This document shows, piece after piece, positions 3,039 through 59,244 of a stretch of 64,000 nucleotides of DNA; positions within the stretch are counted from its first letter, which is position 1, and every line of letters starts with the position of its first letter. The stretch covers positions 186,001-250,000 of the forward strand of contig NZ_SBFF01000006.1 of assembly GCF_004151485.1 (NCBI RefSeq), written 5' to 3'. The stretch is from Sphingosinicella sp. CPCC 101087 (lineage in GTDB: Bacteria > Pseudomonadota > Alphaproteobacteria > Sphingomonadales > Sphingomonadaceae). A program made the position numbers and the translations under genes. The notes beneath the pieces are model-generated. The model was not told the origin of the DNA. It saw nothing but the letters and a program-made list of their open reading frames with translations, and ran no database searches.

Positions 3039-3347
3039 GTGACGCAATCGAAGCAGGAAGTCTCTGCACCCGTCACACTCGACGAGCCGATCCGGCGCGG
3101 CGAGGAGACGATCGACAAGGTGCAGGTCCGCAAACCGAAGGCGGGCGAGCTGCGCGGCCTCAACTATCTCGACCTCGCCCGGATGGACGTCAGCGCGGTG
3201 ATCACAGTGCTGCCACGCGTCACCCTGCCGATGATCACGGAGGCCGAGGCGGCCGACATGGAGCCGTCGGACCAGCTCGCCTTGGCGGGAGAGCTCGCAA
3301 ATTTCTTCGTGCCGAAGGCGGAGAGGCAGGCCTCCCGCACCGCATAG
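3039..3347 (+). CDS. E: Tail assembly chaperone gpE
   Basis: 102 residues, P2 gpE family, which binds the tape measure and tube subunits during tail assembly. Family features are the TIDKVQVRKPKAGELRGLNY block and MTEAEAADMEPSDQ-like sequence. Starts at GTG with a strong AGGAGGAAGG site. A canonical -1 slippery heptamer lies at 3299-3305, 14 codons before the stop, so a fraction of ribosomes should make the longer E+E' protein. Confidence 0.9.
   Translation: MTQSKQEVSAPVTLDEPIRRGEETIDKVQVRKPKAGELRGLNYLDLARMDVSAVITVLPRVTLPMITEAEAADMEPSDQLALAGELANFFVPKAERQASRTA
3299..3305 (+). promoter_or_regulatory. Programmed -1 frameshift site A AAT TTC in gene E
   Basis: In the E frame the codons read GCA AAT TTC, so bases 3299-3305 form the ideal X-XXY-YYZ slippery heptamer A-AAT-TTC. 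A -1 slip lets both tRNAs re-pair (AAA, TTT) and continues in an open frame through the E stop to 3487. P2-like phages are known to make E+E' by a -1 shift at the same place (TTTTTTG in P2). The site is read directly from the sequence; its use is inferred. Confidence 0.85.
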
Positions 3348-3487
3348 AGCGGGTGATGGGCGACGTTGCCTTCGTCTTCGGCTGGTCCCCGGAAGTGATG
3401 GATCGGATGGACGTGACCGAGCTGCTCGGCTGGCATGGCGAGGCGGTCCGGATCCACAATGCGGTGAACGGGACGAAGGACGGCTAG
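3305..3487 (+). CDS. E': gpE' extension, made by -1 frameshift (E+E' about 149 aa)
   Basis: After the slip at 3299-3305 this frame is open for 60 codons and ends TAG at 3487. It contains the GpE-family block V-x-FVFGWSPEVMDRMDVTELLGW, with the Trp and Met-Asp pattern typical of P2 E'. An internal ATG at 3356 gives a 43-residue free product, but no ribosome site supports separate initiation. It ends 3 bases before the tape measure start, the standard place for tail chaperones. Confidence 0.85.
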   Translation, partial: LRAEGGEAGLPHRIERVMGDVAFVFGWSPEVMDRMDVTELLGWHGEAVRIHNAVNGTKDG

Positions 3488-3490
3488 GCC

Positions 3491-6070
3491 ATGGACCGCA
3501 ACCTTCGCCTCCAGGTCATCTTCGACAGCCTCGACCGGCTGACCAGGCCGCTCCGATCTATCATGGGCGGTTCGCGTGCGGCCGCCCGCGGCCTGGCCGA
3601 GACGCGGCGCGAGATCCGCGGTCTTCAGCAGGAGCAGGCGCGGATCCGCGGACTTCGCGACCTGCAGAAGGGCCTCACCGACACCCATACCAAGCTCGAC
3701 GCCGCACGCCGGCGCGTGCGCGAGCTGCGCACCGAGATCGCCGCGGCCGACACTCCGACCAAGCGGCTGACAAATTCCCTGCAGTCGGCGATGCGGGCCG
3801 AGGCCCAGCTCAGCCGGCAGACCGAAGAGCAGTCCGGCAAGCTTCGTCGCCTGCAGTCAGAGCTCGGCGAGGCCGGCGTCGACGTCCGCGACCTGGCCCG
3901 GCACGAGGACCAGCTCGCCTCCCGGATCGGCGAAACCAACCGCCGCCTGGAGCAGCAGCGCGAAAGTCTCGAGCGGACGTCCCGCGCTCGTGAACGCCTC
4001 GAGCGTGCCCAGCAGCGCGGCGAGCGGCTGCGCTCGACCGGCCGGTCGATGGTCGTCGCGGGCGCCGTGGCGTCGGCCCCGCTCGTCGCGTCCGGCGTAA
4101 GCGCGGCGAGCTTCGAAACCCAGCTCACCGACATCGCGCAGAAGGCGGACCTTGCGCGCGATCGCGTCGCGGCGATCGGCCGCGAGTTCGACCGCATGGG
4201 GCCACGCGTCGCCCAGCTGCCCGCCAGCCTTGCGGAGGGCGTCGACACCCTGCTCGGCCTCGGCGCCTCGCTTCCGCAATCGATGCAGGCGATCGAGCCG
4301 ATCGCCCGCGCCGCCACCGCCTATCGTGCCGAGGTGGTGGATCTCTCCAACGCCACCTTCGCCTCGCTCCAGAATCTCGAGGTCGCCGCCGGCGACACGG
4401 GCCGCACGCTCGATGTCATGGCCCAGGCCGGGAAGGCCGGCGCCTTCGAGCTGCGCGACATGGCGCAATATTTTCCGGCGCTGACCGCCTCGGCCAACGC
4501 CCTAGGGCAGCGCGGCGTCCCGGCCGTCGCCGATCTCGCCGCCGCCCTGCAGATCACGCGGCGCGGCGCCGGCGACGCTAGCACCGCGGCGAACAACCTT
4601 CAGAACCTGCTCAACAAGATCAACGCGCGCGACACGATCGCGAATTTCAAGAAGCTCGGGATCGACCTTCCCGCGGCGATGCGCCGCGCCGCGGCCGAGG
4701 GGCGCTCGCCGATCGAGGCGATCGTGGAGCTGACCCGCCGGGCGACCGGCGGCGACCTCGCCCGCCTGCCCTTCCTGTTCGGCGACGCCCAGGTCCAGGC
4801 CGCCCTGCGCCCGCTCGTGCAGGGACTGGACGATTATCGGCAGATCCGCGACGAAGCGCTCGCCGCCCAGGGCACGGTCGCGACCGACTTCGCCGAGCGG
4901 ATGCGGGACAGCGAACAGCAGTATCGCCGCAATACCGCTCGCCTCCAGCAGCTCGCCCACACGGTCGGCGCCGCTCTGCTCCCGACCTTCAATCGGGTCA
5001 TGGAAGTGGTCGGCCGGCTTGCCGATCGGTTCTCCGTCTGGGCCGAACGCAACCCCGAGCTCGTCGCGACGCTCGCCAAGGTAGCCGCGATCGCAGCTTT
5101 GCTGCTGGTGGGCCTCGGTGCCCTTGCCATTGCGATCGGCACGGTCCTCGGACCGTTCGCCTATCTGCGCTTCATGCTCGTCCGTGCCTGGCCGCTCATC
5201 CGTGGCTTCGGCACCGCGATCATGTGGGCCGCCCGGGTCGCCTTCCCGCTCTTTCAGGCGGCGATGCTCATGCTCGCTCGCGGCGTGATGCGCGCCGGCG
5301 CGATGATGCTGGCCAACCCGGTCATCCTTATCATCACCCTAATCGTCGCCGCGGTCGCCGGCGCCGCCTACCTGATCTGGCAGCATTGGGACACGATCCG
5401 GGCCGCCTTCGATTCCGCGGTCGGGTGGCTCGGCCGAGCCTGGCAATCGATAAAGCACATCGTCGTCCAGAGCGCGCTCTTCCTCACCGCACCGATCCGC
5501 CTGCAGGCAGCCAGCCTGATGATAGTCTGGGATTGGATCCGCGGCATCTTCAACGGCGCAGTGGCCTTCCTGTCGACCCTCCCGTCGCGAATGCTTCAGC
5601 TCGGGCGCAACGTGATCCAGGGCCTGATCAACGGCCTCATGGCGCCGATGCGGCTGCTTCAGGCTACGATCGAGCGCATCGGCAACATGATGCCGGGGTG
5701 GCTCGCGCGGCCGCTCGGCATCCGATCGCCGTCCCGCGTCTTCGCTCGCCTCGGCGGCTTCGTCACCGACGGACTTTCCCAGGGCATCGATCGCGGCGCC
5801 GCCCGTCCCCTGGCCCGCGTCCGCAGCCTCAGCCGCGAGCTGACCACGGCGCTGGCCGTCGGCGCCGCCGCGCCGGCGATGGCAGGTATCGGCTCGCCGG
5901 GCGCGACGTCGACCAGGGCGGCGCCCGCTGGGTCCGGACCGGTGACGATCAACATTTACCCTTTGCCTGGTCAGAGCTCCGAGGACATCGCCCGCGAGGT
6001 CGAGCGGATTCTCGAGCGCCGCGAACAGCAGAAGGCGGCCGAGCGCCGCTCGAGCTTCGAAGATGACTGA
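3491..6070 (+). CDS. T: Phage tail tape measure protein T
   Basis: 859 residues; sets tail length and is ejected with DNA. Order: an N-terminal coiled coil (about 25-185, repeated Glu/Arg/Gln heptads), a TP901-type core (about 200-480, with ASFETQLTDIAQKADL and a run of helices), hydrophobic segments at about 520-560 and 570-635 that could span the inner membrane, and a Ser/Pro/Ala-rich tail ending in a second short coiled coil. Position right after E/E' is diagnostic. Its stop overlaps the next gene by 8 bases. Confidence 0.93.
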   Translation: MDRNLRLQVIFDSLDRLTRPLRSIMGGSRAAARGLAETRREIRGLQQEQARIRGLRDLQKGLTDTHTKLDAARRRVRELRTEIAAADTPTKRLTNSLQSAMRAEAQLSRQTEEQSGKLRRLQSELGEAGVDVRDLARHEDQLASRIGETNRRLEQQRESLERTSRARERLERAQQRGERLRSTGRSMVVAGAVASAPLVASGVSAASFETQLTDIAQKADLARDRVAAIGREFDRMGPRVAQLPASLAEGVDTLLGLGASLPQSMQAIEPIARAATAYRAEVVDLSNATFASLQNLEVAAGDTGRTLDVMAQAGKAGAFELRDMAQYFPALTASANALGQRGVPAVADLAAALQITRRGAGDASTAANNLQNLLNKINARDTIANFKKLGIDLPAAMRRAAAEGRSPIEAIVELTRRATGGDLARLPFLFGDAQVQAALRPLVQGLDDYRQIRDEALAAQGTVATDFAERMRDSEQQYRRNTARLQQLAHTVGAALLPTFNRVMEVVGRLADRFSVWAERNPELVATLAKVAAIAALLLVGLGALAIAIGTVLGPFAYLRFMLVRAWPLIRGFGTAIMWAARVAFPLFQAAMLMLARGVMRAGAMMLANPVILIITLIVAAVAGAAYLIWQHWDTIRAAFDSAVGWLGRAWQSIKHIVVQSALFLTAPIRLQAASLMIVWDWIRGIFNGAVAFLSTLPSRMLQLGRNVIQGLINGLMAPMRLLQATIERIGNMMPGWLARPLGIRSPSRVFARLGGFVTDGLSQGIDRGAARPLARVRSLSRELTTALAVGAAAPAMAGIGSPGATSTRAAPAGSGPVTINIYPLPGQSSEDIAREVERILERREQQKAAERRSSFEDD

Positions 6071-53484: not shown

Positions 53485-54546
53485 TCAGCCTCCCTGCAGC
53501 TGGTGCCGCCGCATCGCATGCCGCAGCTGATCGTAGCTGAGGCTCAGCGCCGCTGCCGCCGCGCGCTGATTCCAGCGGCATTTCTCCAGCGCGGCCGAGA
53601 GGATCGCTTTCTCATACTCGGCCACCGCCAGACGGAAATCGCAGCAAGCGTGCGGATCGTGGGCCGCTGAAGCCGCCACACCGCCATTCGCCGGGCCGGA
53701 AACATTCTCGTTGGCGGCCGCGGCCAGGGCCGTTTCGGGCTCGCTGGCCGAAGACTTGGCATAGGCTGGAGCCCAGGGCGACTCGAACGGATCGAAAGTG
53801 ATATCCTCGATCGGCCCCTCCTGACCGTCCCAGCGATAGACCGCGCGCTCGATCACATTCTTCAATTCACGCACATTGCCGGGCCAAGCGTATCCGAGCA
53901 GCTTCGCCATCGCCTCGTCACTGAACTCCGGCCAGCTCTCCCAACCCAGCTCCAACGCCATCCGCCGGCCAAAAAAATCGGCGAGCACCGGAATGTCGCT
54001 GTGTCGATGCCTCAAGGGCGGCAGGGTCACGACCTCGAAGCTCAGCCGGTCAAGCAGGTCGGCGCGGAACCGGCCCTGATCGACCAGGCGCGGTAGGTGC
54101 TCGTTCGTCGCCGCTACGATGCGCACGTCCACCCGGACCGGTCGACTCGATCCGATGCGGGTCACGTCACCATATTCGATCGCCCGCAGCAGCCGGTCCT
54201 GCGCCGGGCTCGACAAGGTCGCCAGCTCGTCGAGGAACAAGGTTCCGCCATTCGCTTCTTCGAATCGGCCGGGCCGCGCCTTGGTCGCGCCGGTGAAGGC
54301 GCCCGCCTCATGGCCGAACAATTCGGCTTCGATCAGAGTCTCGGGCAAGGCTGCGCAATTCATGATAATGAGGGGACCGTCCCAGCGCGAGGAGAGGTGG
54401 TGGAGTCGTTCGGCGATCAGTTCCTTGCCGGTGCCGCGCTCGCCGATCACCAGCACCGGCCGGTCGAGCGGCGCCGCCCGGCTCGCTCGTTCGACGGCGT
54501 CGAGAAAGGACGACGACTGGCCGACCAGCTGGACGTGATGCTCCAT
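53485..54546 (-). CDS. pspF: PspF-type sigma54 activator
   Basis: 353 residues from ATG 54546. AAA+ domain with Walker A GERGTGKE (35-42), the sigma54-contact loop GAFTGA (82-87), Walker B GGTLFLDELATL and R-finger region. No regulatory N-terminal domain, as in PspF, which is held in check by PspA. C-terminal Fis-type HTH (QRAAAAALSLSYDQLRHAMRRH). Divergent from the psp operon. Confidence 0.92.
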   Translation of the reverse strand: MEHHVQLVGQSSSFLDAVERASRAAPLDRPVLVIGERGTGKELIAERLHHLSSRWDGPLIIMNCAALPETLIEAELFGHEAGAFTGATKARPGRFEEANGGTLFLDELATLSSPAQDRLLRAIEYGDVTRIGSSRPVRVDVRIVAATNEHLPRLVDQGRFRADLLDRLSFEVVTLPPLRHRHSDIPVLADFFGRRMALELGWESWPEFSDEAMAKLLGYAWPGNVRELKNVIERAVYRWDGQEGPIEDITFDPFESPWAPAYAKSSASEPETALAAAANENVSGPANGGVAASAAHDPHACCDFRLAVAEYEKAILSAALEKCRWNQRAAAAALSLSYDQLRHAMRRHQLQGG

Positions 54547-54687
54547 GTTCATGCCTCGCGCGCCGGTAGGTTCGACCGGCGATCCGACCACTTATTGGGA
54601 TATTTCACCACCTCTTGGCAAGCTCTAAATGGCTTTTCCACCTTCCGAGAGGCTGGTTTTCGGCAGTTTTCCGCGGTTCCTGTGACT

Positions 54688-54703
54688 TGGCACGCCCCCT
54701 GCT
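54688..54703 (+). promoter_or_regulatory. Sigma54 promoter of the psp operon
   Basis: TGGCACGCCCCCTGCT: the GG at 54689-54690 (-24) and GC at 54701-54702 (-12) are spaced exactly 12 bases, the sigma54 rule. It reads rightward to the small upstream gene and pspA, with pspF encoded upstream on the other strand. Confidence 0.88.
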
Positions 54704-54769
54704 TAGTTTCCCACGTCACCGCCGATGGTCGGTGGGACGTGAACGCAAACCAGGTTGAGGAGACCGGAT

Positions 54770-54930
54770 ATGTTCAGCACCGAAGTCTTTCTCGCGTCGC
54801 CACGGCCGCAGTCGGCGCGCTCGTCCTTTCGACCCTCTCGGTCGCAGCCGCGGTCGGTCCGGCCCAGTCGGCCGGCTCCCCTGCTGCAGCCTACGCCATG
54901 ATCGACAACGGCACCCGTACGCATGGCTGA
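54770..54930 (+). pseudogene. Small exported-protein gene, interrupted by an apparent 1-base deletion
   Basis: ATG 54770 has a GAGGAGACC site, but its own frame stops early and gives an Arg/Pro-rich peptide. The next frame over encodes SRVATAAVGALVLSTLSVAAAVGPAQSAG, a signal-peptide-like sequence ending TGA at 54930. Adding one T to the TTT at 54788-54790 joins the two halves into one natural reading frame beginning MFSTEVFSRVATAAVG. It could be a real mutation or an assembly error. A GTG at 54739 gives the same frame without the shift but has no ribosome site. Confidence 0.5.
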
Positions 54931-55048: not shown

Positions 55049-55747
55049 ATGGGCATCTTTTCGCGGACGCGCGATATCATTGCCGCCAACGTCACCGACC
55101 TGCTCGACAAGGCCGAAGATCCGGCCAAGATGATCCGGATGATCATCCTCGAAATGGAGGAAACCCTGGTGGAGGTTCGCGCCTCCGCCGCCCGTACCAT
55201 CGCGGATCAGAAGGAGATGCGCCGGCAGATCACCAAGCTGGACCGGCTCCAGGAAAGCTGGGTCGAAAAGGCCGAGCTCGCTCTGTCCAAGGGTCGCGAG
55301 GACCTCGCCAAGGCGGCCCTGTTCGAAAAGCAGAAGGCGGCCGACATGGCCGACCAGCTCAAGGCGGAGATCGAGGTCCTCGATGACGCGTTGCGCGCCT
55401 CTGAGACCGACATCGCCAAGCTGCAGACCAAGCTGCGCGAAGCCCGCGCGCGCCAGAATGCGATCGTGACGCGGATGGAGAGTGCCCAGAACCGCGCCCG
55501 CCTGCGCGAGCTCTATTCAGGTCCCAAGGTGGACGAGGCCTTCTCACGCTTCGACGTGCTCGAGCGCCACGCCGATCTCGCCGAGGGCCATGCCGACGCG
55601 ATGAGCTTGGGCGGCCCGCCCAAGACGCTCGACGAGGAGATCGCCGAGCTCAGGAACTCGGAGAAGGTCGATGCTGAGCTGGAGGCGCTGAAGGCGTCGC
55701 TCGCCAAGCGCACCAACGGCGGCGAGGCCGCGAGCAAGGAAGGCTGA
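55049..55747 (+). CDS. pspA: Phage shock protein PspA
   Basis: 232 residues from ATG 55049 (AAGGAG upstream). MGIFSRTRDIIAANVTDLLDKAEDPAKMIRMIILEM start and continuous long coiled coils to about residue 220. ESCRT-III-like membrane repair protein and inhibitor of PspF. First intact gene of the operon. Confidence 0.95.
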   Translation: MGIFSRTRDIIAANVTDLLDKAEDPAKMIRMIILEMEETLVEVRASAARTIADQKEMRRQITKLDRLQESWVEKAELALSKGREDLAKAALFEKQKAADMADQLKAEIEVLDDALRASETDIAKLQTKLREARARQNAIVTRMESAQNRARLRELYSGPKVDEAFSRFDVLERHADLAEGHADAMSLGGPPKTLDEEIAELRNSEKVDAELEALKASLAKRTNGGEAASKEG

Positions 55748-55751
55748 TCAG

Positions 55752-56096
55752 ATGGAGGATATCCTCGTCCCGATCTTCGTCGTCGGAATGCTCTTCATCG
55801 GGTTACCGTGGATCGTGTTCCACTACATCACGCGATGGAAGACGGCGGCGACCCTCACGACCGAGGATGAGAATCTCCTCGATGAACTGCACGACCTCGC
55901 CCGTCGACTCGACGAGCGGATGAACACGATCGAACGCATCATCCAGGCCGAGAATCCGAACTGGCGCTCGGTCGCGTTCGATCCGGTCGACACCGCGCTC
56001 GAGGATCGCAGCAACCGCATCCTGGAAGCCGGCCGCCTCGAAGCCGACCGGCTCGGATCCGGCCGCATGTCCAATCGCCCGCACAGGAGGAATTGA
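55752..56096 (+). CDS. pspB: PspB-type membrane protein
   Basis: 114 residues. N-terminal TM (PIFVVGMLFIGLPWIVFHYI) then the PspB coiled coil DELHDLARRLDERMNTIERIIQAENPNWR. A longer C-terminus than E. coli PspB (74 residues). Begins 4 bases after pspA and overlaps pspC by 1 base. Works with PspC to sense membrane stress and release PspF. Confidence 0.9.
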   Translation: MEDILVPIFVVGMLFIGLPWIVFHYITRWKTAATLTTEDENLLDELHDLARRLDERMNTIERIIQAENPNWRSVAFDPVDTALEDRSNRILEAGRLEADRLGSGRMSNRPHRRN

Positions 56097-56479
56097 TGAC
56101 CGGCGCGCGAACCCGCTTCTATCTCGACAAGCAGAACGCCAAATGGTCGGGCGTCTGCGCCGGAATCGCCGATTATACCGGCATGGACGTCACCCTGGTG
56201 CGCATCGGCATGGTCCTGCTCACCATCTTGGGCGGATTTCCCTGGACGTTGATCGCCTACTGGATCGTCGCCGCAATGGCTCCGAGGAAACCGCTCGAGC
56301 TTTACGAACAGGATCCGGCCCAGCAGAAGTTCTGGCAGGGCGTTCGCGCCAATCCGCGCCGCACCGCCCGTGACGTCCGCTCGCGCTTCCGCGACATCGA
56401 CCGCCGCCTCGCCGACGTCGAGGCCTACGTCACCAGCTCCAACGGCCGCCTCGCACGGGAAATCGAGGAGCTGCGCTGA
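56096..56479 (+). CDS. pspC: PspC-type membrane protein
   Basis: 127 residues. PspC domain: RFYLDKQNAKWSGVCAGIADYTGMDVTLVRIGMVL, then a second TM. The C-terminus carries an added helix (RDIDRRLADVEAYVTSSNGRLAREIEELR) very like the motif at the end of PspB and the following small proteins. ATG 56096 overlaps the pspB stop. Confidence 0.9.
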   Translation: MTGARTRFYLDKQNAKWSGVCAGIADYTGMDVTLVRIGMVLLTILGGFPWTLIAYWIVAAMAPRKPLELYEQDPAQQKFWQGVRANPRRTARDVRSRFRDIDRRLADVEAYVTSSNGRLAREIEELR

Positions 56480-56507
56480 TCGCGCTGAAAAAGAGGGGAA
56501 GGAACAG

Positions 56508-56801
56508 ATGGGTTTCGGAGGTCCGTTTTTCGTCATCGCGATCGTGCTGATCGCCACCGCGGGCTGGGTGATCACCACCTGGCTCAGGATCAAGCATGGC
56601 TATCCGCTGACCGACGATTGGGGGAATACGGTCCATCCGGTTCCCGGACCCGACGCGACCCGTCAGACGGAGCTGCTCGCGAGCGAGAACCAGAAGCTGC
56701 GCGGCCAGGTCGGCCGGCTGGAGGAGAGGATCGCCGTTCTCGAGCGCATCGCCACCGATCCGGCGGAGCGCACCGCGCGTGAGATCGACAAGCTGCGCTA
56801 G
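56508..56801 (+). CDS. PspB-like small membrane protein, array member 1
   Basis: 97 residues; ATG with GGGGAAGGA upstream. One TM (about 6-25), then a conserved cytoplasmic TWLRIKHGYPL and an acidic/basic coiled coil ending VGRLEERIAVLERIATD-x-AREIDKLR. Shares a 33-base identical block with member 3. Inferred to act with PspB/C. Confidence 0.75.
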   Translation: MGFGGPFFVIAIVLIATAGWVITTWLRIKHGYPLTDDWGNTVHPVPGPDATRQTELLASENQKLRGQVGRLEERIAVLERIATDPAERTAREIDKLR

Positions 56802-56822
56802 GCAATTGAAGGAGTATTGCCG

Positions 56823-57176
56823 ATGTCTTGGGGAGGTCCCGAATTCGTTCTGGCGATCATCGCGATCAGCACGCTCGGCTGGCTGGGGAGCAGCTGGATA
56901 CGGGCTCGGCACGGTTACCCGCTCGAGAATGAGTGGAGCGGGATGACGTTCAAGGACGACGTCGCCGCCGGAGCGCGCGAGGTCAAGCGGCTCGCCGTGG
57001 AGAATGGCGAGATGAAGGCGCAGATCGGCCGGCTTGAGGAGAGAATACGGGTGCTGGAGCGGATCGCCACCGACAAGGGCTCGGCGCTCGCAGCCGAGAT
57101 TGACGGCCTTCCCGATCTCTCGTCCCGCCCGCTCGAACGTTTGAATCGCCAGTCGGAAGGGAGCCTGCAGCCATGA
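56823..57176 (+). CDS. PspB-like small membrane protein, array member 2
   Basis: 117 residues from ATG 56823 (AAGGAG upstream). One TM, then ARHGYPLENEW and the IGRLEERIRVLERIATDKG coiled-coil motif, nearly identical to member 1. The C-terminal tail is extended. Overlaps member 3 by 4 bases. Confidence 0.75.
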   Translation: MSWGGPEFVLAIIAISTLGWLGSSWIRARHGYPLENEWSGMTFKDDVAAGAREVKRLAVENGEMKAQIGRLEERIRVLERIATDKGSALAAEIDGLPDLSSRPLERLNRQSEGSLQP

Positions 57177-57490
57177 ACTTTCCATTCGAAACATTCGCCC
57201 CGGTCTTCGCCCTCGTCGGGATCGCCGCGGTGGCCGGCTGGGTGTTCGTCACCTGGCTCAGGATCAAGCATGGCTATCCGCTCGACGGCGTCTGGGGCCA
57301 GGCGGTCTATCCGAAGAAGATGGACGAGGAGGCGATCGAGCGGATCAAGCTGCTCTCCACCGAAAATGCTCAGCTTCGCGCCGAGCTCGGATCGGTGAAG
57401 GACCGACTCGCCAATGTCGAGCGGATCGTCACGGACGACACGCACAGAATCACCCAGGAGATCGAGGCGCTGCGTTCGCCCAGTCACTAA
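57173..57490 (+). CDS. PspB-like small membrane protein, array member 3
   Basis: 105 residues from ATG 57173. TM (about 10-30), TWLRIKHGYPLDGVWG and the coiled coil VKDRLANVERIVTDDTHRITQEIEALR. The 57250-57282 stretch is identical to 56576-56608 in member 1, so it is a recent duplicate or subject to gene conversion. Confidence 0.75.
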   Translation: MNFPFETFAPVFALVGIAAVAGWVFVTWLRIKHGYPLDGVWGQAVYPKKMDEEAIERIKLLSTENAQLRAELGSVKDRLANVERIVTDDTHRITQEIEALRSPSH

Positions 57491-57581
57491 GGAGTCGCGC
57501 AATGTCGCCGTTGCCTTCAAGCTGTTCGCGCTATTCATGGCCCTGGGCGTCCCTTGCCTGTTCGTGAAGGCCTGATCGCTC

Positions 57582-57788
57582 ATGAACCTTGGATCGACCG
57601 CTGCGAGCCGCGCATGGGGACACGATGATGACGGGGAGAAAGCGGCAATATGCGGCTCCCAGGAGCCGCTCGAGCAGCGGGTACGGTGCTGGAGCGCATC
57701 GTCACCGAAAAGGAAATCACCGGCCGATGAGATCGAGAAGCTGCTCGACCGACCCTCGCCCCGCCCCGTTCAGAAAAGGAGCTTCTGA
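57582..57788 (+). pseudogene. Decayed array member between members 3 and 4
   Basis: No single open frame with TM. In one frame VLERIVTEKEITGR ends at a stop and in the next frame EIEKLLDRPSPRP continues the coil to a TGA that overlaps the member 4 start. Together these make the family motif ...LERIVTE...EIEKLL, broken by a frameshift, with the TM part lost. Bases 57491-57581 hold no complete gene; a short TM-like stretch there is out of frame. Confidence 0.6.
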
Positions 57789-58028
57789 GTGATCGACAAT
57801 CCGTTCGAAATGGTAGTCCTGATCGTCCTGATCATGGCGATCGCCGGGGTCATGCGCGCCAAATATAAGAGCCATCGCACTGCTGATTCGCAGATCGAGT
57901 CGGCCGAGACCGGCCAGCTGCGCGAGGAGGTACGCAAGCTGAAGGACCGGGTCGCCGTGCTCGAGCGGATCGCCACCGACAAGAACCACCTGCTCGAGCA
58001 GGAATTCGAGCGGCTGCGGGACAGTTGA
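57789..58028 (+). CDS. PspB-like small membrane protein, array member 4
   Basis: 79 residues from GTG. TM (about 7-22), then a short linker and LREEVRKLKDRVAVLERIATDKNHLLEQEFERLRDS, the most PspB-like coil of the array. It lacks the KHGYPL block. Confidence 0.75.
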   Translation: MIDNPFEMVVLIVLIMAIAGVMRAKYKSHRTADSQIESAETGQLREEVRKLKDRVAVLERIATDKNHLLEQEFERLRDS

Positions 58029-58035
58029 GTCAGCA

Positions 58036-58248
58036 ATGTCGAACCCGTTCGTCCTGCTCGTCCTGTTTGGCACCGCAACGATCGCCATCGCGATTGCCAC
58101 GGCGGCGGCATTTCGGATCTGGCGCGATTGGCTCGATCTCAAGCGGGCCGGGATGCGCCGGGATCCACCGGGCAGCGCGGGTTGCGAGATCACGGACCTG
58201 CGTCAGCGCATCCGCCGCCTTGAATCGATTGCCGACGGCGAGGTCTGA
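58036..58248 (+). CDS. PspB-like small membrane protein, array member 5
   Basis: 70 residues from ATG 58036. TM (about 5-27) and a short coil ITDLRQRIRRLESIADGEV, ending soon after the ERI-x-D position. The most divergent member. Last gene of the array; about 140 bases of gene-free DNA follow. Confidence 0.65.
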   Translation: MSNPFVLLVLFGTATIAIAIATAAAFRIWRDWLDLKRAGMRRDPPGSAGCEITDLRQRIRRLESIADGEV

Positions 58249-58390: not shown

Positions 58391-58804
58391 ATGGCCTTCC
58401 AATCGCTACGCGACGTCTATTCCGATTACGAGCTGCTCGAAGCGGACGACCGCTACCGGCTGCTGATCGATCTCGGCCGGCAGCTCGAGCCGATGCCCGA
58501 CCCCCTCAAGACCGACGCCACCCTCGTACGCGGCTGCTCGGCCGCCGTGTGGGTCTATCCGATACCCGCCGAGGACGGGCGGCTCCATTTCCTCGCCGAC
58601 AGCAATGCGGCGATCACCAAGGGAATCGTTGCCCTGGTGCTGCTCGCGGTGCAGGATCGTACGCCCGAGGAGATTTTGGCGACGGACATCGAGGGCGAGC
58701 TCGCCCGATTCGATCTGGGCCATCAATTGAGCTCGAACCGCGCCCAGGGAATTCCCAACATGATCGCCCTGGTTCGCGAGACGGCGCGCCGGCTTGCCGA
58801 ATGA
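58391..58804 (+). CDS. sufE: SufE-like sulfur acceptor
   Basis: 137 residues. SufE fold with the persulfide-accepting Cys49 in RGCSAAVWV, and C-terminal helices with GIPNMIALVRE. Delivers sulfur from the cysteine desulfurase SufS for Fe-S assembly. Overlaps the thioesterase gene (ATGA). Confidence 0.93.
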   Translation: MAFQSLRDVYSDYELLEADDRYRLLIDLGRQLEPMPDPLKTDATLVRGCSAAVWVYPIPAEDGRLHFLADSNAAITKGIVALVLLAVQDRTPEEILATDIEGELARFDLGHQLSSNRAQGIPNMIALVRETARRLAE

Positions 58805-59244
58805 GCGGGGATGATCCGCGCGACGACCAACGCTTCGATCCGGAACGATTTATGAGCTATGTGCGTCAGGTCGGCCACGGCGGCGCGCTCGGCATCGCTT
58901 ATCGCGATCATGGCGACGACTGGGCGGAGCTCGCGCTTCCCTACGACGAGCGCCTCGTCGGAATGCCGGCCAGCGGGATCATCGCTTCTGGCCCGATCAT
59001 CAGTCTGATGGACATGGCCACCAGCCTCGCGATCTGGGTCAGGATCGGCCGTTTCCGGCACCAGGCGACTCTCGACCTTCGCGTCGATTATCTGCGGCCG
59101 GCGATCCCCGGTCGCACGCTGGTCGGCCGCGGCGAATGCTACGGTCTTACCCGAAGCGTCGGCTTCGTCCGCGGCACGGCCCATGACGGCGACCCGGCCA
59201 GCCCGGTCGCCCATGTCGGCGGCACTTTCATGTTCACGGACTGA
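58801..59244 (+). CDS. PaaI-type hotdog thioesterase
   Basis: 147 residues from ATG 58801. Hotdog fold with the PaaI pattern GPIISLMDMATSLAIW (Asp in the helix), ATLDLRVDYLRPA and a C-terminal GGTFMFTD. Acyl-CoA substrate unknown. Coupled to sufE. Confidence 0.85.
   Translation: MSGDDPRDDQRFDPERFMSYVRQVGHGGALGIAYRDHGDDWAELALPYDERLVGMPASGIIASGPIISLMDMATSLAIWVRIGRFRHQATLDLRVDYLRPAIPGRTLVGRGECYGLTRSVGFVRGTAHDGDPASPVAHVGGTFMFTD

Follow-up and report, generated by a model that had tools for sequence, protein, structure and literature searches.

The Psp system is a textbook case of a response to membrane stress, and the enterics in which it has been studied carry one PspB and one PspC. In the stretch of DNA analysed here, 64,000 nucleotides from Sphingosinicella sp. 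CPCC 101087 (hereafter, the window), pspC is followed by a series of further small genes, which raises the question of what these genes are and what they might add to the response. The question extends to the whole family (Sphingomonadaceae), in which psp operons hold from one to nine further PspB/PspC relatives and a few genomes lack PspB. Such variation provides a natural test of which helix is responsible for silencing, for PspA capture and for protection.

The psp operon of the window

The core of the operon is readily recognized. The gene for the sigma54 enhancer-binding activator, pspF, lies on the reverse strand (53485..54552; TIGR02974, 484 bits, cut-off 443.55) and is divergent from pspA (55049..55747; TIGR02977, 271.5 bits, cut-off 242.95), pspB (55752..56096; PF06667, 93.1 bits, cut-off 25.6) and pspC (56096..56479; TIGR02978, 130.3 bits, cut-off 104), which are on the forward strand, as are the promoter, the small ORF and the array genes described below. 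All four genes score above the NCBIfam equivalog cut-offs, and the PspC has a C-terminal helix. A putative sigma54 promoter, TGGCACGCCCCCTGCT, is located at 54688..54703, 361 nt 5′ of pspA, and shows 11 of the 12 letters of the sigma54 consensus. The divergent pspF, the sigma54 promoter and the pspA-pspB-pspC series are together those of a pspFABC operon. The interval between promoter and pspA holds a small, signal-peptide-like ORF (54739..54930, with a guessed GTG start) that carries the motif VGPA and would come first on the psp transcript. An HMM was made from 48 ORFs picked by this motif, which the window ORF has too; it recovers the window ORF at E 1.3e-15 and finds relatives in 69 of the 81 loci compared below.

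Behind pspC, the five extra small genes that a preliminary description of this DNA had claimed were confirmed as ORFs. They are M1 (56508..56801), M2 (56823..57176), M3 (57173..57490, overlapping M2 by 4 nt), M4 (57789..58028, with a GTG start) and the terminal M5 (58036..58248); the [KR]HGYPL block ascribed to the first three is indeed present in M1, M2 and M3. Subfamily HMMs place M1 and M2 in subfamily alpha, M3 in beta, M4 in delta and M5 in epsilon. M2 is an additional alpha gene that is common to the window and Sphingosinicella terrae (L012), where its counterpart, with 77% identity, is third in the array. Between M3 and M4, the interval 57513..57773 holds a decayed gamma copy with a broken reading frame: gamma proteins match it in tblastn with a best E of 1.9e-8 and an in-frame stop, and a portion of it is also hit, in a different frame, by delta-type queries (best E 4e-5). 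The architecture of the window is, in effect, alpha-alpha-beta-(dead gamma)-delta-epsilon. In the whole genome (4.7 Mb), the alpha and delta models gave four matches each, all of them in the array and none elsewhere.

The array proteins have the single N-terminal transmembrane segment (TM) and C-terminal cytoplasmic coil that mark PspB. Among 370 array proteins from the 81 loci, a 17-residue hydropathy peak of at least 1.6 occurs in 75% (beta) to 99% (delta) of members, and K/R values rise from 0.00-0.26 before the TM to 1.95-4.00 over the 15 residues that follow; the coil is assigned to the cytoplasm because of this charge pattern. For M1, AlphaFold predicts helices at residues 6-30 and 48-96, the second being the long C-terminal helix, with modest confidence (mean pLDDT 70.6, pTM 0.31). 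After the array, at 58391-59244, come genes that by eye resemble SufE and a thioesterase; a SufE-like gene is present in 68 of the 81 loci.

Conservation and variation of the array

A scan of genome contigs with M1, M2 and M3 returned at least 499 related stretches, of which the best 80 were kept and, with the window, make up the 81 loci. The 80 comparison loci were selected by their likeness to alpha and beta proteins and are biased in that respect. pspF, pspA, pspB and pspC were found in all 81 loci, with the array genes directly after pspC (median gap, 29 nt). The array comprises three genes in 2 loci, four in 44, five in 26, six in 7, seven in 1 and nine in 1, and its 370 proteins were sorted into the five subfamilies by motif-seeded HMMs, with three ambiguous cases. 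Alpha is present in 81 of the 81 loci by construction of the locus choice; epsilon is likewise present in 81, always closing the array, delta in 77, gamma in 58 (missing in 23) and beta in 56 (missing in 25). The full series alpha-beta-gamma-delta-epsilon is found in 23 loci, the same without beta in 20 and without gamma in 19, and thirteen other architectures account for the remaining 19.

This order, with repeats and losses allowed, fits 77 of the 81 loci. Of the four exceptions, L012 has gamma ahead of beta, and three (L032, L086 and L089) deviate because of one ambiguous gene each. In two more distant family genomes (L219 and L220), gamma-type genes stand directly after pspC, ahead of beta and alpha; therefore, the order has changed within the family, and these two loci together with the four exceptions rule out a strictly fixed one.

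In all 81 loci, the 700 nt preceding pspA contain a sigma54 site that agrees with the consensus in 10 or more of 12 letters, versus 1 of 81 shuffled upstream regions. The reading of the array as co-directional genes after the psp sigma54 promoter is supported. Within the operon, sites of this quality occur in only 2 of 81 loci; the internal sites seen in 59 of 81 operons at 9 of 12 letters were rejected on the strength of that fall. A scan for sigma70 promoters found none, and a scan for terminators found 4, with 2.5 expected by chance.

In the family as a whole, at least one member-like match was found in all 163 sampled genomes (f1), counted as presence and not as position. Within the order, the alpha model finds a match in 214 of the 246 genomes; by a hand count of the matches, these are 160 of the 163 genomes of the window's family and 54 of the 83 genomes of other families, where matches are weaker (best E 2.5e-11). 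The three family genomes without an alpha match have one or two delta-like genes behind pspC, as detected with a broader model. Ten psp stretches from more distant family genomes (L180, L212-L220) were also examined. Here, the array can be reduced to one gene, L214 and L215 show only delta, and epsilon was detected in five stretches (L216-L220) but not in the remaining five. Thus, the expansion described earlier as lineage-specific stands at the level of the whole family, but not as a recent or local event, which is ruled out by the array in 81 of 81 loci and its family-wide presence. Neither this presence, nor the five subfamilies, nor the remnant at 57513-57773 figured in the preliminary description.

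An array of this kind could also have arisen by mostly neutral tandem amplification, without a selected function. The variation from 3 to 9 genes across the 81 loci and the decayed window copy would be expected in that case. Against it, the array genes are under purifying selection in the pairs tested: in 12 chosen locus pairs, of which 7-12 were usable per subfamily, median dN/dS was 0.109 for alpha, 0.042 for beta, 0.080 for gamma, 0.082 for delta and 0.090 for epsilon, values like those of PspB (0.108) and PspC (0.070). The order kept in 77 loci and the family-wide presence speak against neutrality as well, and we give it only a very slim chance. Between the window and S. terrae, delta (0.70) and epsilon (0.36) look relaxed; the delta pair is perhaps not orthologous.

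Relationship of the array proteins to PspB and PspC

The alpha to delta proteins are considerably closer to each other than to the PspB and PspC of the operon. M2 and M3 are 45-48% identical to M1 nearly end to end, and M3 and M4 are 50% identical over 42 coil residues. In profile comparisons, alpha (M1, M2), beta (M3), gamma and delta (M4) match with E-values of 7e-13 to 1e-29 and with values of 97.9-99.8% in every pairing, which places these four subfamilies in one protein family. Epsilon (M5) is weakly linked to the rest of the array, with profile values of 89% to gamma, 49% to alpha and less than 1% to PspB or PspC; the last of these give no support for filing M5 with either protein.

The much greater closeness within alpha to delta than with PspB or PspC is consistent with a separate coiled-coil assembly, in which the members would pair among themselves and use the psp promoter without touching PspB, PspC or PspA. 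The mostly constant order and the well-separated subfamilies would also fit heteromers of this type. Nevertheless, the subfamilies are freely lost, as the loci without beta or gamma and the delta-only genomes show, which makes an assembly of that sort decidedly unlikely.

Kinship with PspB and PspC is more distant and differs among subfamilies. Delta and PspB reach a profile value of 92.3% over membrane helix plus coil, alpha and PspC 91.9% over membrane part plus tail, and beta and PspC 91.8% over the tail only; in each case, none of 30 heptad shuffles did as well. None of 30 shuffles reached the values of gamma with PspC (64.9%), delta with PspC (68.7%) or alpha with PspB (72.1%) either, while the scores of beta and gamma with PspB (75.7% and 86.3%) were each equalled by 2 of 30. 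As a control, FtsB from 26 genomes was used, an unrelated TM coiled-coil protein, against which alpha, beta, delta and epsilon give 2.6-3.7%. Because gamma gives 67.9% against it, values of 65-75% are weak evidence and were rejected as signs of homology by themselves. All subfamilies remain below 6% against PspA.

Searches with curated models, in which the library run (Pfam or NCBIfam) varied between subfamilies, point in the same direction. PspB is the commonest Pfam match at E 0.01 for delta (10 of 23) and gamma (10 of 22), and alignment scans of these two against PspB gave best E-values of 1.1e-5 and 4.7e-5, respectively. The NCBIfam PspC model TIGR02978 matches 22 of 24 beta proteins and 0 of 19 alpha proteins at E 0.01; 16 of the 24 beta proteins are also matched by an unrelated coil model, Npun_F5560. 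Alpha matches neither the PspB nor the PspC models at E 0.01, M1 and M2 reaching only E 0.07-0.1 with NCBIfam PspB, and none of 24 epsilon members matches a Pfam family at E 0.01. In the window, the PspB Pfam model that had been proposed as a check finds M4 (PF06667, E 5.4e-4), but at 20.4 bits of the 25.6 required, and it does not match M1, M2, M3 or M5. Ten further delta proteins were scored singly; four match PspB with E-values no higher than 0.01, but none reaches the cut-off, the highest score being 20.2 bits. Filing members as PspB was accordingly rejected for proteins scored singly, although a single delta or gamma member may yet lie above that cut-off. The PspC domain PF04024 matches none of M1-M5 at E 1. 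The array adds conserved small proteins, of which none scored singly passes a curated family cut-off.

The likenesses lie in particular parts of the proteins. Like PspB (PF06667, TIGR02976), the array proteins have a single TM at the N-terminus and the pattern R-x-x-x-[LIV]-E-[RS]-[IV] in their cytoplasmic coil, while the coil of the window PspB is followed by NPxW and that of the array members instead by TD and then EI-x-x-L. With PspC (TIGR02978), the array shares only the tail, in which the coil closes with EI-x-x-LR: the window beta protein, M3, aligns to the last 58 model positions, with 20.5 of the 104 bits of the cut-off, and the end of PspC aligns with that of M1. By these comparisons, PspB is the protein that gamma and delta resemble, the PspC tail is the counterpart of beta, and alpha is close kin of beta. 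The paralogous PspB/PspC-related array put forward in the preliminary description holds for alpha to delta as one family with these kinships, with M5 only weakly linked to it.

Such genes may already have been touched on in print. Extra 'PspB duplicates' in a psp operon were published in 2024, with AOL22920.1 as the example (PMC11237479, section 17), which is possibly an instance of the Sphingomonadaceae array. That mention is a single clause, however, and gives no subfamilies, order, PspC-tail-like members or spread in Sphingomonadaceae; the main text of PMC11237479 has neither 'Sphingo' nor 'Erythrobacter', and the searched part of PMC9239133 has no 'Sphingo'. In open-licence literature, as covered by titles, the starts of abstracts and main texts, no description of the array was found.

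Outside the family, the relatives fetched are single or paired delta-like genes in Proteobacteria, mostly without a psp gene nearby. In stretches of about 3-7.5 kb, psp genes were found only in L134, from another family of the order, where a delta-like gene follows pspA-pspB-pspC-pspC, and in L126, with a PspB-like gene inside a psp operon. Thus, having the coil is not in itself a sign of a Psp role. A delta-only search gave 8 matches in 289 genomes of the class; with a broader model (A8), matches numbered 11 among these 289 and 32 among 299 genomes of the phylum. The counts include plain PspB genes (L184, L185, L186) and what by eye are chance matches (L125 and L127, which look like seryl-tRNA synthetase). 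Two genomes from another family of the Alphaproteobacteria have a delta-like gene next to a further small coil gene in tandem (L130, 3227-3709; L179, 2874-3374), with no psp gene found in either fetched stretch; the neighbours in L130 look by eye like dut and coaBC.

Relatives of this kind suggest that the architecture can work without PspA, and the array proteins could be effectors, induced with the operon and acting on the membrane or on other machinery without signalling via PspA or PspF. In enterics, PspD and PspG are thought to be effectors. The position of the array genes behind the regulators in the operon would agree with this, as would the juxtamembrane motif [KR]-x-GYP-x(4)-W, which is conserved in alpha and beta and absent from the PspB and PspC consensus. 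On the other hand, the parts that match, the PspC tail for beta and PspB for gamma and delta, correspond to signalling helices, and we regard an effector role as rather unlikely.

A possible role in PspA capture

On balance, the Sphingomonadaceae psp operon appears to be an extended pspFABC system, whose array would supply further helices anchored in the membrane; these would enter the PspB/PspC complex and adjust the capture of PspA. Cytoplasmic contacts between PspB and PspC reportedly silence the response in Yersinia, to go by the title of a paper. Damage would free PspF and fire the promoter, and the array proteins would be produced alongside PspA, PspB and PspC and combine with them into mixed complexes in the membrane; the mixed coiled coils proposed in the preliminary description are plausible. 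By analogy with the Yersinia and E. coli systems, we infer that alpha and beta may contribute docking tails for PspA, and gamma and delta PspB-like partners. In detail, beta, with its likeness to the PspC tail, and alpha, as its kin, would offer PspA additional sites at which to dock on the membrane, the PspB-like gamma and delta would pair with PspC-type tails and set the threshold between the off and on states, and the number of array copies would tune sensitivity and PspA recruitment. In the on state in Yersinia, the C-terminal cytoplasmic domain of PspC is reported to bind PspA and to free PspF (PMC5596341). For E. coli, a putative leucine zipper of PspC is described as required for interaction with PspA, and PspB as self-associating (PMC3068692).

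A bolder version, tentative and somewhat doubtful, is a combinatorial Psp system. Its mixed membrane receptor would consist of up to about ten different PspB-like and PspC-tail-like single-TM subunits, with gamma and delta able to replace PspB, alpha and beta serving as further docking tails for PspA, and gain or loss of genes retuning the stress threshold from species to species.

Natural losses of PspB are seen in a few genomes. In a scan of 246 genomes, a true pspB was present in 160 of the 163 family genomes, and the Pfam PspB match was missing in three (G078, G170 and G209). In each of them, pspA-pspC is followed by gamma and delta, which fits these two covering for PspB. Against this, there are only three cases, two of them in one genus (g30), whose other genomes retain PspB plus gamma- or delta-type genes, and alpha, beta and epsilon were not found in the stretch examined from the three genomes. 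No pspF was found in the stretch from G078 (L180); its psp operon, at 3288-4904, has no pspB, encodes a PspC without the C-terminal tail, and includes both gamma and delta.
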